DNA of 64,000 nucleotides from the NCBI GenBank assembly GCA_964030785.1, contig OZ034969.1:1236201-1300200 (forward strand), in the 5' to 3' direction. This DNA comes from Siderastrea siderea (Eukaryota; Cnidaria; Anthozoa; Scleractinia; Rhizangiidae). The stretch's first letter is position 1; every line of letters starts with the position of its first letter. The notes below the pieces were generated by a model. That model was not told the origin of the DNA and made no database searches. It worked only from the letters and a program-made list of their open reading frames with translations. Shown one piece after another: positions 49,009 to 58,000 of this stretch. The position numbers were made by a program, and so were the translations under genes.

Positions 49009-52000
49009 TCATATACATTCCCCAAAATCGATGACAGCAGAAATTTTGGCTCTAAAGACAACGTTTTTCGTCGATATTTTTTTGCCCGCCTTGTTCGCAT
49101 ATTGCTTAAATAAACAAGTTTTCAAATTATGATTTTAACTGATGCAACTCGAAAAATAATGGCTTTCTTGAAAAGGTACTGTTCCGCGAGCCTTACTCTT
49201 TTGTTCCTCTTATCGCTTTAGGAACGAACTCTGAATACACCTAAAGGAACTTTTATTTAGGCCGAAATCAAAAATAAGAACAACCATGTCTGAATTCGGA
49301 ACAAAGGGTTCCTTTTGACATAAATGTGAACACGAAGTTCCTTTTTTATTTAGAATAAAGGGAACTCTTTGTTCCGTTTTGATCTTTTCAGGAACAAATG
49401 GTCCTTTTTAAATGGTTCCGATTTTATCGAGTGTTCTCCTTCAAACAATTTGTTCCTTTTAACCAGTACATTAAGTTCCGGAGTTCAATAATGAGGAACG
49501 ATTGTTCCGCTTAAGTATTTTCTTATGACCAATTAGGAACGTGCTGTTCCTAATCGTGGCTTGTCGTTCCCAAATATATTAAGTGGTTCCTTTCCAAAGC
49601 AATTTTTTTCCTAAGGAAGTTGTTCCTTTTCCTGCTGAATGGGAACATTTGTTCCGTTTTCAGACTGGGGCTAATAAGAACCGCTTAAAGTTAAAGAGGA
49701 ACTAGAATTCCCTTTTCACTTAGTTCACTAAATGGGAACGATGGTTCCTATTTAGTTTTAGTCAACAGGAACGCAAGTTCTGATTTTAGTTTGTCAGTCT
49801 AACATGCTCAAGGGCAAATTTAATTTTTAGCCTTGGCTTGCCTGATACATGTTTAATCACGTTAGGGCAGGTTTGACCAAGATGAGACTTGTCCCTTTGT
49901 TCCTTTGTCTGCTCCTTTGTTTGGTTTTATTGTGTAGAAAACCGGCCAGATATCGAGTGGATACCAAGTCAGCTATTTGGTATAAATACAGTAGTCTCGT
50001 GAGAAACTTCACAATATCAGATCTTAAAAGATGAGTAAAAGAGGAGTGGAAATCGACTGGTCAAAACTACCAAACGCGTCGCCTGAACCCAAAAGGCTTC
50101 ACTTAGAAGAAGACGACTCTGATCGTCTTTTTCACTGCCCAGTGCAAGGCTGTAAGCATGATGGAATTACCACACAAAGAGGCTGCAGAAAACACACCAA
50201 GAACAAACACCGTTGGTACTTTTATTTCGACGAAAAGCCAAACATTACTCAGACCGAAGCATGCCAACAACAAAGCAACAAAAATGACGCCAATGATGAC
50301 AAGACTTCACTTAAAATCAGACGAGCTCTCTCTTTTGACAAGTAAAATTGCTCAAGATTTTTTGTCCTGGCTTACCGGCAGTGGTGGTGGTTGTAAAAGC
50401 GATCGGCAAGCACACCAAATTGTCAGCAGGTGTTTGAAATTTCTTAAATTCTGTTGTGAAGACGACGAGGATCTCACATTTGAAATCGTCGACTTTAGTC
50501 TATGTTCGCCTAATCTCCTTTTCAATTGTTGACGTGATGCAAGATGAGTGGAATCTCGGGCATGCAGGGCGCATAGGCTACTTGGACGCTATTGCAGAAT
50601 TGGGGCATTTCAGAAAAGTTAATGGAGCCTTGGAATCGGTATTAAGAGGATTATCTTGTACAGAACTGTACTTCAAAAAAGTGCGCAAAACCGTGTCCAA
50701 AATGATGCGATTACAATGGACGAGCGAACTCGATATCGACGCCTTAGAAGCCAAGGGACACTGGGCCACGCTCGAAGAGCTCTTGGAAGTCGTGGGGCGA
50801 TACTTGCCGCGCTACGAAAGCGTGCTGAAGTCATGCAAGGATAATCCAGGTTCGATATCCCCACTTGACTTATCTTTTGCTACCAAATTTCTCGCCGTAT
50901 ATTTGTTCATAAAGGTTAAGGGCTCGCGCCCGATGACATATCAGTATTTAACTGTTGAAATGGTGAACAAAGCTAAAACTAACGGCGGATTTATTGATCA
51001 GAAAATGTTCAAAACAGCAGGAAAATATGGCTTTTATTCTCTTTACCTGACCGAGACTAGCATGCAAGTGTTAGATGGCTACATCGATCACATTCGCCCT
51101 CTGCTCTAGCCGAACTGTGATTATGTTTTAGTGACGAGAAATGGAGGACAACACAACAAGCTAGGAGAACTAATGAGTAAACTGGTCTTCGATGCAACAG
51201 GCAAGTACGTTCATCCGACTCGCTATCGACAAATAGTCCAGACGGCAAGTACTAGACATCTTAGCAGCAGTGCGCAAAGCACAGTTTCCGAAGACCAGAA
51301 AGACAGCTCTGTCGTGGCAAAGGTTCACTATCAAAAACAACGATCGCGCGAGGTCGCTAGTAAAGCGCACAAATGTTTGGAAAAACTACACGGCGACAAG
51401 GGAACAGAGCTAGAAATGGAAGTGCGCTCGAGACTTTCAGACAAGTCAACTTCTTCACATGAGCACAGTGCTGACAAAAGCGATAGTTCTCTAACCGACG
51501 AAGACGAAACGATCACTAAAACACAATACGCTAGACAAACAGAAATTGGCGAGAGAAGAAAAAATGTGATGTTCACTCCAGAGGAAGACATATATCTAAA
51601 AGCTGGACTTAAGTGGAAAGCGGTCAGTGGAAAGCGATTCTGAGGGACCCCGATTTTCATTTTCACGAGGGAAGAACATCTAACTCTCTCCTGAGCAGGG
51701 CAACAAGAAAATTTGGATCATATTCTAAAAGATAGAGCATTATCCCAAGTTAGCAGTGATTGGTTATGGCCTGCTAATCACATACCGTTTTCGCTTCCAA
51801 GAGTATGCTTGGAAATGTTTCTTCGCTACAAATTCGGACGACATAAACCATTTTGCCTCTTTCTCTGCTGCGCCGAATGAGTAAGATGGACAGGATTGCA
51901 GAAAAACACCCCGCAATGTCTTTGAGCGATCTAAAATTTGCTGGGGAATATTTGGAAGAAATTTGTGCCTGTGACTACCCGAAAGAAACGGCTTTGTTGG

Positions 52001-55000: not shown

Positions 55001-58000
55001 ATAAGGTCTTCCCGAAAATTTTCATTGCCCTCAAGCGCCACTAACCAATCCACCACACTACATTTATATCTGTAGGTGTATTGTGATTCTTTTACTTTCT
55101 TGTACATTGAGCCTCGATACAGCTTGTAGCCCAAACTTTCCATAGCCCTCTCTAGTTTTTCAAATAGCACAACTTTTGGATCACTTGTGATGCACTTGTC
55201 TGGTGTGTTGGTTGTCAGCATTTCGTTTGAATCGGCGTCAAAAATGTCCACGCGAAGACCGGCCTTTTTCATTGCCTCCAACGCATTGGTGATCTGGTTC
55301 TTCTTTTTTGATGATGCGTTCATGTGACAAAATACCACTTTTTCCGTTGAGCGGTTTGTCGACGATGAAAGCAGATCTTGACAGGACAGTTGGTCTGCAA
55401 AATCTCTCATGGTTGCTTGAAAAGAAGTTTTAACCAGCTCAATCACATAAGATGAGCTGTGATCCTTTAAGACGGGAAATAAAGACTTGATGGATTTCTC
55501 CACGGTCTTTTGAATCTGGACATTAATTTCCAGCTCACAGGAAAGGAGCACTTTTTTGATTGGAAGCAATGAAACAGGAGCTCCTGTAGAACTTGTGAAC
55601 GCCATCCAAAACGAAAACGAGGGAAACCGTTTCTTCTCGACCGCCATTGCAAAGCTTCTCTCAGTTGCCTGAGATATTTGCGAGCTTTCTGAAACTCCGC
55701 TGTCTTCATTTTCATCACCATCTTCATCGTCGTTACACTCTTCAGAATTGCTCTTCTCTTTATCTTTTTTGGGGGGTTCTTTAACTCCTATTGCCGACAG
55801 AAAGAATTCTAAGCCTTCGAGGGTCAACAAGGACCGATTACATTCTTCTCTCTTCTTGCAAACTAGCTTCCACGCCTCTGTCAGATCTTTTCTTTGGACT
55901 CTCCATACACATGATGCAGTCACGACGGATAAACGACTTCGTATTATGGGGGACAAGAAACACGATGCAGCGTCTTTGATTGCTTTGCTGTTAAGCTGTC
56001 GAGCAGGATGTCTTGCTGATCTATACATCTCCCTGTCTTGCGCGTAACTGAGGCAGAGACACGATTTCGTTTTCTTTTATAGTTATCCGGGCACATTACT
56101 CATACATATCGGCGCGCCCACTCACGCACGCACACACGGAATTGTGCAATTAACTTGCTGATTAAACAATTGTGTTACCTAACCATCGAATTCCAACCTT
56201 GTGGCAGAAATAGTTGTTTCATTAGCTAAGACTAGGAGAGACGTGGTTCTCAAAGTTGAAGAATTCTATTGTCCAGAACAATACAAATAAAATGTCATTT
56301 GCACGATCTCGTTCAAGAAGAATGCACTCTCATCAATACAAATTCAAGCAATAAGAACATTGTTTCCATAACAATCTTCTAGCTTGATGATGGCATTGTC
56401 TCATTGAAAATTTGCTGTAATTACAAATGTGTCGATCCGTTCTCTCTGGAGTCGAAAGTTGACAATAAAGAATTTATTTTATTCCGTCACTCTGAAATAT
56501 AAAATGCTTATTCCTTGTCGATTTAACTGTATCTATTCAAGACTTGAAGTACTGTCTCCGTGGATCCGCTTATCCGTCCATGTAATAAACTTTTATCCGG
56601 GCTAGGTTGGTAATCAGATTTTTTTTCAGATGGACGGAACCATGGATTCACGGATTTCTCCTCTTAAAGCTCTATAATGTTGAATCCGTAGATCCGTCAT
56701 TTTGAAATAAAAAATGCATATTCCTTGTCAATTTAAAATGTATCTATTCAAAACTGGAAGTACTGTCTCCGTGGATCCGCTTATCCGTCCATGTAATAAA
56801 CTTTTATCAAAGCTATGTTGGAAATAAGATTTTTTATACTCTTTTTTTTTCCAGATGAACGGAAGGGCAGATTCACGGATTTCTTCCATTAAAGCCCTAT
56901 AATGTTGAATCCGTCACACTGACTTTGCCATACCCGTGAAGAGAAATGTTATATATATATGGACGGAGAGACGGATTTACGGATTTCATTTTAGTAAGCT
57001 AAATATTTAAATAAATAAATAAATAAATAAATATATATATATATATATGTTTATATATATAAATAATATGTTAATGCTATTAATATATTAATAATACTAA
57101 TATATTAATAATATTAACATATATATATATTTATTTTCTTATTTATAAGCTAAATATTTAAATAAATAAAAAATGAATAAATAAATAAATATATATTTAT
57201 ATATATATAATATGTTAATATTATTAATATATTAATAATATATAATATTATATATATAATATATATACATATATAATATGTTAATATTATTAATATATTA
57301 ATAATATTAACATATTATATATTTATTAATATTAATTAATTTATTAATATATTATTATATTAATATATTTATTAATATTAATATATTAATAATATTAACA
57401 TACTATATATATATATATTTATTTAAATATTTAGCTTATTAAAATGAAATCTGTAAATCCGTCTTTCCGTCCATCAAAGAAAAAAATTCTGATTGCCAGT
57501 CTTATTATGCAGGTCCATATATATTATTTCTCTTAACGGGTATGGCAAAGTCAGTGTGGCGGATTCAACATTATAGAGCTTTAAGGGAAGAAATCTGTGA
57601 ATCCGCCCTTCCGTTCATCTGAAAAAAAAAAGTATAAAAAATCTTATTTCCAACATAGCTTTGATAAAAGTTTACTACATGGACGGATACGCGGATCCAC
57701 GGAGACAGTACTTCCAGTCTTGAATAGATACATTTTAAATTGACAAGGAATATGCATTTTTTATTTCAAAATGACGGATGTACGGATTCAACATTATAGA
57801 GCTTTAAGGGGAGAAATCTGTGAATCCGTGGTTCCGTCCATCTGAAAAAAAATCTGATTACCAACCTAGCCCCGATAAAAGTTTATTACATGGACGGATA
57901 AGCGAATCCACGGAGACAGTACTTCCAGTCTTGAATAGATACAGTTAAATCGACAAGGAATAAGCATTTTATATTCAGAGTGATGAAATAACAAAGCTGT

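Follow-up and report, generated by a model that had tools for sequence, protein, structure and literature searches.

We establish here, in a 64,000-nucleotide stretch of the genome of the coral Siderastrea siderea (contig OZ034969.1, positions 1,236,201 to 1,300,200; hereafter the window), a 9,509-bp inserted unit with defined junctions that carries the genes of a tyrosine recombinase (YR), a small cyclin and, convergent with these two, a superfamily 3 (SF3) helicase, together with a dense array of GTTCC pentamers near its left end. We consider it probable that this unit is a capsid-less, integrating and replicating DNA element of anthozoans, whose circular form, origin, recruitment of host factors and use of the cyclin we infer.

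The unit was delimited with the help of a segmental duplication inside the window, in which 13553-19023 corresponds to 48197-64000, with further indels. Both copies of the duplicated region, the source of the empty site described here, contain a Fibrinogen_C exon. In blastn comparisons within the window, 48197-49012 was matched by 13553-14361 and 58522-60542 by 14297-16314; we refer to the sides 13553-16314 and 48197-60542 as copy A and copy B, respectively. Copy B is filled, being interrupted by 9,509 bp, whereas copy A runs continuously across a TTA microsatellite (14280-14394), and the left and right flanks are 95.8% (733 columns) and 96.0% (1,989 columns) identical to copy A, the microsatellite excluded. 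When the flanks were joined with removal of 0-11 bases, exact matches to copy A were obtained only at 5 or 11: removal of 5 bases gave 39 exact bases, the limit of the scan, and removal of 11 gave 36, one 6-bp repeat unit more being taken out. Copy A is the empty site of the block, and the recombinase, cyclin and helicase genes therefore all lie inside one insertion or excision unit, as the original prediction had supposed in assigning them to a single element. The right end that it had placed at 56450 lies about 2 kb further on, since the empty site sets the ends at 49013 and 58521.

The junctions carry a 5-bp direct repeat, ATCAT, seen in one copy of the element (n=1) and sited in a microsatellite. 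Right end, ATCAT and left end, read together, give 13-bp arms around 8 bp, with 9/13 positions matching (P 0.013-0.018), an arrangement similar to the 11-13 / 6-8 layout that a passage of PMC3212892 gives for YR sites. Between the left and right ends as first proposed, the true right end being 58521, there are no inverted repeats of at least 9 bases and only two short direct ones. The genes are tightly spaced, with about 150 bp between recombinase and cyclin and about 245-375 bp between cyclin and helicase; no second set of junctions was seen inside the unit, and no second copy of the element elsewhere in the 64-kb window.

The plus-strand recombinase gene, already part of the original prediction, was recovered by tblastn with the database relative P0010, which covers 50031-51729 in four pieces and three frames. 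The residues R302, H397, R400 and Y436 are invariant in all 18 recombinases aligned, and the fold of P0010 compares as Xer/Cre-like (rows 1-26 of the best 50 matches are recombinases, integrases or proteins of that fold); by this R-H-R-Y set and fold, the gene product is a member of the tyrosine recombinase superfamily. Profile searches had been proposed for both enzymes: SF3 profiles were indeed matched by helicase relatives (PPV_E1_C under its cut-off), but the recombinase went unrecognised by Pfam and PHROGs. The family counts 889 database relatives. In the window copy, three frame changes and one in-frame TAG make the gene non-working, and this copy of the element is therefore decayed. A Myb domain was found in 5/5 scanned recombinase relatives (P0002, P0010, P0019, P0104, just under the cut-off, and P0088). 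For the Myb domain of the window (51541-51729), the nearest PDB entries to a profile of relatives are the telomere-repeat-binding proteins TRF1/TRF2, a likeness that possibly hints at the DNA target of the recombinase. TATA boxes, predicted at both outer ends, are present as TATAAA at 49981 (+) and 56081 (-), roughly 50 bp ahead of either outer start codon, in a block that holds four TATAAA on the plus and nine on the minus strand.

The convergent gene runs on the minus strand through four exons, from 56028 to about 52634, and its spliced structure, likewise foreseen, agrees with P0142 and P0136 (the latter from the scleractinian coral Oculina patagonica), which read straight through the first two exon junctions. 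Exons 1-3 have open frames; in exon 4 the frame shifts once near 53090, and at 52631 a stop occurs where the relatives P0142 and P0143 continue. Exon 1 as a query yielded 24 relatives among 5,397 candidates, with a far tier at 36-41% identity. Eight of 13 aligned relatives end at most about a dozen residues past the exon-1 donor and a further two no more than about 60 residues past it, and in the same set P0136, P0142 and P0143 extend into the helicase core; relatives ending near the donor, with three reading on, support the gene model. Walker A (GSADSGKTS), Walker B (EVMFLDEAT) and motif C (IPMLITYQ) follow in order in the window, and the corresponding motifs of relatives are GDANSGKTS, EVIFIDEAT and CPMLITSQ. 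The 'full SF3 motifs' first claimed are thus there as a set of three, but the last residue of motif C is Q, not N, in the window, P0142 and P0143.

Profile comparisons matched P0143 to PPV_E1_C (E 1.8e-5, 24.5 bits, below the 26.5 cut-off), and both P0142 (3.7e-4) and P0143 (7.9e-5) to phrog_1156, a DNA primase. Taken together, motifs and profiles, in the window and in relatives, support the prediction that the gene encodes an SF3 helicase, for which the E1 and D5 types are candidate nearest relatives, two of the supporting matches being weak. The structure model of the helicase was of poor quality, and tblastn with exon 3 in phages gave no match. Past the stop, the same frame continues into a tail ending in QIKITNF(F), which we take to fit the PCNA-interacting (PIP) motif; the PIP-like ending is weaker in P0143 and weaker still in P0142. 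Sites for cyclin-dependent kinase (CDK) and RxL motifs, considered as a link from the helicase to the cyclin, were rejected, being few and not aligned between the window and P0136, P0142 or P0143.

The open reading frame (ORF) at 51877-52257, originally described as cyclin-box-like, matches Cyclin_N with E 1.5e-8, above the curated cut-off. IAIKLE or LAIKLE is present in it and in 6/7 relatives inspected, part being lost in P0160, and we take the K...E of this motif to be the CDK-contacting residues of the cyclin box; with such a box and its K...E, the ORF is, as judged from its sequence, a cyclin. In PDB, relative P0146 comes closest to cyclin E1 (E 0.005). The search for relatives, which had a length limit that placed longer host cyclins outside the candidate set, passed 21 of 26 candidates, all of 69-151 aa, with two clusters of 62 and 65 members. 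Identity in the far tier is 58-66% at near full length, which speaks for the small cyclin being a working gene.

The iteron-like array reported at one end proved to be well beyond chance: 26 GTTCC/GGAAC sites lie in 49181-49768, where 1,000 dinucleotide shuffles produced 1.6 on average and never more than 7. When the three commonest pentamers of each 600-bp segment were compared, this was the densest pentamer with at least three G+C in the window (25, the next having 16). Twelve of the 26 sites form six GGAAC-N4/5-GTTCC palindromes, which are all such palindromes of the 64-kb window; random placement of the 26 sites never gave six (maximum 4, 20,000 runs). Furthermore, of the 50 site pairs within 60 bp, 21 are spaced by roughly a multiple of 10 bp, compared with 22% under a home-made null (P 0.0015, bins chosen post hoc). 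An excess of GTTC/GAAC in the right 341 bp of the unit ties the right end to this array. We regard the array as a candidate replication origin, its pentamer palindromes presumably recalling the E1 and large-T origins; it could instead serve the recombinase or transcription.

Table: Features of the inserted unit, ordered by position in the window
Feature	Positions	Strand	Evidence or remark
Left ATCAT, direct repeat / crossover, in TAA/TTA microsatellite	49008..49012	+	joined-flank alignment, join scan
Whole inserted block	49013..58521	.	9,509 bp; blastn and joined-flank alignment to copy A
26 GTTCC/GGAAC pentamers, including six GGAAC-N4/5-GTTCC palindromes (head-to-head); putative origin, or array bound by the recombinase	49181..49772	.	
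TATAAA upstream of recombinase	49981..49986	+	about 50 bp before start codon
Recombinase gene (C2H2 finger, tyrosine recombinase, Myb), broken	50031..51729	+	tblastn with P0010, P0104
Single-cyclin-box ORF, 126 aa, intact	51877..52257	+	Cyclin_N; 21 relatives of 69-151 aa
Same-frame tail past stop, ending ...QIKITNF(F), PIP-box-like	52500..52630	-	comparable tails in P0142, P0143
Helicase exon 4 (tail)	52634..53221	-	frame change near 53090; weak tblastn to P0142 601-690, E 5e-4
Helicase exon 3 (motif C, arginine-finger region)	53434..53981	-	gene model, tblastn
Helicase exon 2 (Walker A, Walker B)	54201..54395	-	GT/AG splice sites; P0136, P0142 read through
Helicase exon 1 (N-terminal region and D5_N-like region)	54673..56028	-	24 relatives, up to 96%; tblastn match by P0142, P0136
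TATAAA upstream of helicase gene	56076..56081	-	about 50 bp before start codon
Large inverted-repeat block, 354-nt arms 97%, AT-rich centre, ACGGA/ATCCG motifs	56483..58135	.	
Right end, 10 GTTC/GAAC sites	58181..58521	.	2.3 expected, P 1.5e-4
Right ATCAT	58522..58526	+	joined-flank alignment, join scan

The inverted-repeat block 56483-58135 is built of units of about 211 bp, with a further degenerate unit beyond its arms. Given this outer unit, it is no simple nested miniature inverted-repeat transposable element (MITE), and the block may be either intrinsic to the element or nested. Elsewhere in the duplicated region, 60543-61070 spans 528 bp in copy B against 27 bp in copy A, and one of its ends resembles the other in inverted orientation, as in a MITE. 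On the minus strand, 2056-8090 contains four long ORFs (206, 184, 252 and 439 aa) that match no Pfam entry at E 0.01 and may belong to a further unrecognised element or to a spliced gene.

Gene content was scanned in ten coding pieces and seven other stop-to-stop ORFs of at least 100 aa of the block. The check for capsid genes proposed at the outset was run on the block with Pfam and PHROGs and recognised none, although a very divergent or small-ORF capsid could escape it; ATPase, polymerase and reverse transcriptase were likewise not recognised in these pieces and ORFs. With no capsid gene recognised, the endogenous virus-like element that the original prediction offered as an option is no more than a possibility. 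Scans of IMG/VR with single recombinase or helicase sequences and alignments found no relative, nor did scans of prokaryote genomes. Contig figures were compared by eye for 120/889 recombinases, 24/24 helicases and 21/21 cyclins. Recombinase cluster P0003 and cyclin cluster P0146 have the same longest contig figure (550,198 bases), as do recombinase cluster P0091 and cyclin cluster P0159 (2,171,853); these shared figures suggest linkage of recombinase and cyclin, with the proviso that a large contig may hold both by chance.

In the mechanism that we propose, the tyrosine recombinase would recombine the two ends of the element across a short core around ATCAT and thereby release it as a circle, with the C2H2 and Myb domains of the enzyme binding the ends or the target, and would reinsert the circle elsewhere, here into a TAA/TTA microsatellite. 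The SF3 helicase would be the replication initiator, which would bind the palindromic GTTCC array as an origin, unwind it, and recruit host polymerases and PCNA via its C-terminal PIP-like motif, and the small cyclin might activate a host CDK, favouring S phase or initiation. It is quite possible, if somewhat short of probable, that such units form a novel class of mobile DNA in animals: 'plasmid-transposons' that integrate, multiply extrachromosomally from a pentamer-palindrome origin with an E1-like initiator of their own, set the host cell cycle with a mini-cyclin and reinsert in Cre-like fashion; lacking a capsid, they would connect Cryptons with small DNA tumour viruses. To our knowledge, how YR transposons that lack a reverse transcriptase raise their copy number is an open question, to which an initiator and origin of their own would, if true, be a direct and testable answer. 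Cell-cycle hijack of this sort is otherwise seen in viruses, and a transposon-borne cyclin would be an unusual case of it; the proposed class, if real, would also bear on the origin of the E1-type helicases of small DNA viruses.

Several observations weigh against a replicating element of this composition and lend themselves to an alternative that we hold to be unlikely, namely a modular family: a large Crypton-like group would be built around the recombinase, and this copy would have acquired its helicase-cyclin module from another element, by capture or nesting. In matches, the recombinase family outnumbers helicase and cyclin about 40-fold (889 relatives versus 24 and 21), the helicase has no contig figure in common with the listed recombinases or cyclins, and the inverted-repeat block inside the unit hints at nesting. 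Yet the genes are tightly packed with no second junction set seen, the right end has GTTC motifs in common with the left, and sequence divergence is faster in the helicase (far tier at 36-41%), so that distant relatives would escape the seed search.

If an animal DNA virus of papillomavirus-like, RepE1 cressvirus or polinton-like kind had shed its capsid genes but retained replicase and integrase, its remains would fit the E1 and D5 likeness of the helicase, to which two weak matches contribute, the RepE1 cressviruses and integrated pieces in sea anemones described in part of PMC11071296, and the pairing of YR and SF3 in polinton-like viruses (passages of PMC4642659). We think this origin improbable, given that no capsid, ATPase or polymerase was recognised in the scanned pieces and ORFs, that both cyclin and helicase form families with multiple copies in public contigs, and that the IMG/VR scans found no relative. 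Finally, the junction lies in a TAA/TTA microsatellite, a setting prone to such events, and the 9.5-kb difference might stem from an ordinary deletion in copy A between microsatellite arrays, or from filler DNA where a break was repaired, with the genes as unrelated neighbours. This seems very unlikely in view of the mobile-type genes in the block, the multi-copy relatives of these genes in public contigs, the related GTTC motifs near both ends, and a repeat whose 5 bp fall within the 4-6 bp given for fungal and oomycete Cryptons in the relevant passage of PMC3212892.

Among known systems, Cryptons as treated in passages of PMC3212892 (Kojima & Jurka 2011) resemble the element in their R-H-R-Y tyrosine recombinase, the lack of a reverse transcriptase, and a circular intermediate, which is proposed for Cryptons and would apply to the element too. 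There the recombinase is the sole enzyme, some Cryptons also having a C48 peptidase; fungal, oomycete and diatom types have 4-6 bp direct terminal repeats, within which the 5-bp ATCAT falls; animal Cryptons lack both a C-terminal domain and terminal repeats; and the main text does not use the word helicase. The element departs from animal Cryptons in the Myb domain at the C-terminus of its recombinase and in its genes for a helicase and a cyclin. We rejected membership of Cryptons, as an SF3 helicase and a cyclin lie in the same insertion as the recombinase, and of the animal type in particular, as all five scanned relatives carry the Myb domain. The DIRS, Ngaro and ALOG-type YR retroelements (part of PMC3537659) share YR integration and are known from anthozoans, but the element has a spliced helicase gene, and membership of DIRS/Ngaro was set aside with no reverse transcriptase or RNase H in the pieces and ORFs scanned.

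The original prediction that no family combines these genes does not hold as put, since YR and SF3 occur together in polinton-like viruses (PMC4642659) and archaeal elements (PMC6563490), as passages of these papers state. Polinton-like viruses and virophages (in parts of PMC4642659 and PMC10120064) share with the element this pair and a recombinase gene near the end; they have capsid genes, measure 15-30 kb and come mostly from protists or algae, whereas the element measures 9.5 kb. Papillomavirus E1 and cressvirus RepE1 (in part of PMC11071296) would share the E1-type SF3 helicase, which in the element is joined to a tyrosine recombinase and a cyclin, with no capsid recognised. Placement among polinton-like viruses was rejected on the same count, no capsid being recognised by Pfam or PHROGs.

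We know of no introns, cyclin or Myb domain in the cryptic integrated elements of Thaumarchaeota, which by analogy would be the nearest functional parallel. As described in passages of PMC6563490, these are capsid-less and integrated and have their own SF3 replication protein, as the element appears to, but they are archaeal, with the S3H fused or linked to a primase, and no primase was recognised in the element. The parts are known, and what appears new is their combination in an animal: a capsid-less animal element with YR, SF3 helicase and cyclin was not found among the matches listed from the open-licence literature, a scope that leaves Repbase families aside. By analogy with these systems, the element may be pictured as working like a Crypton equipped with a plasmid replication module.

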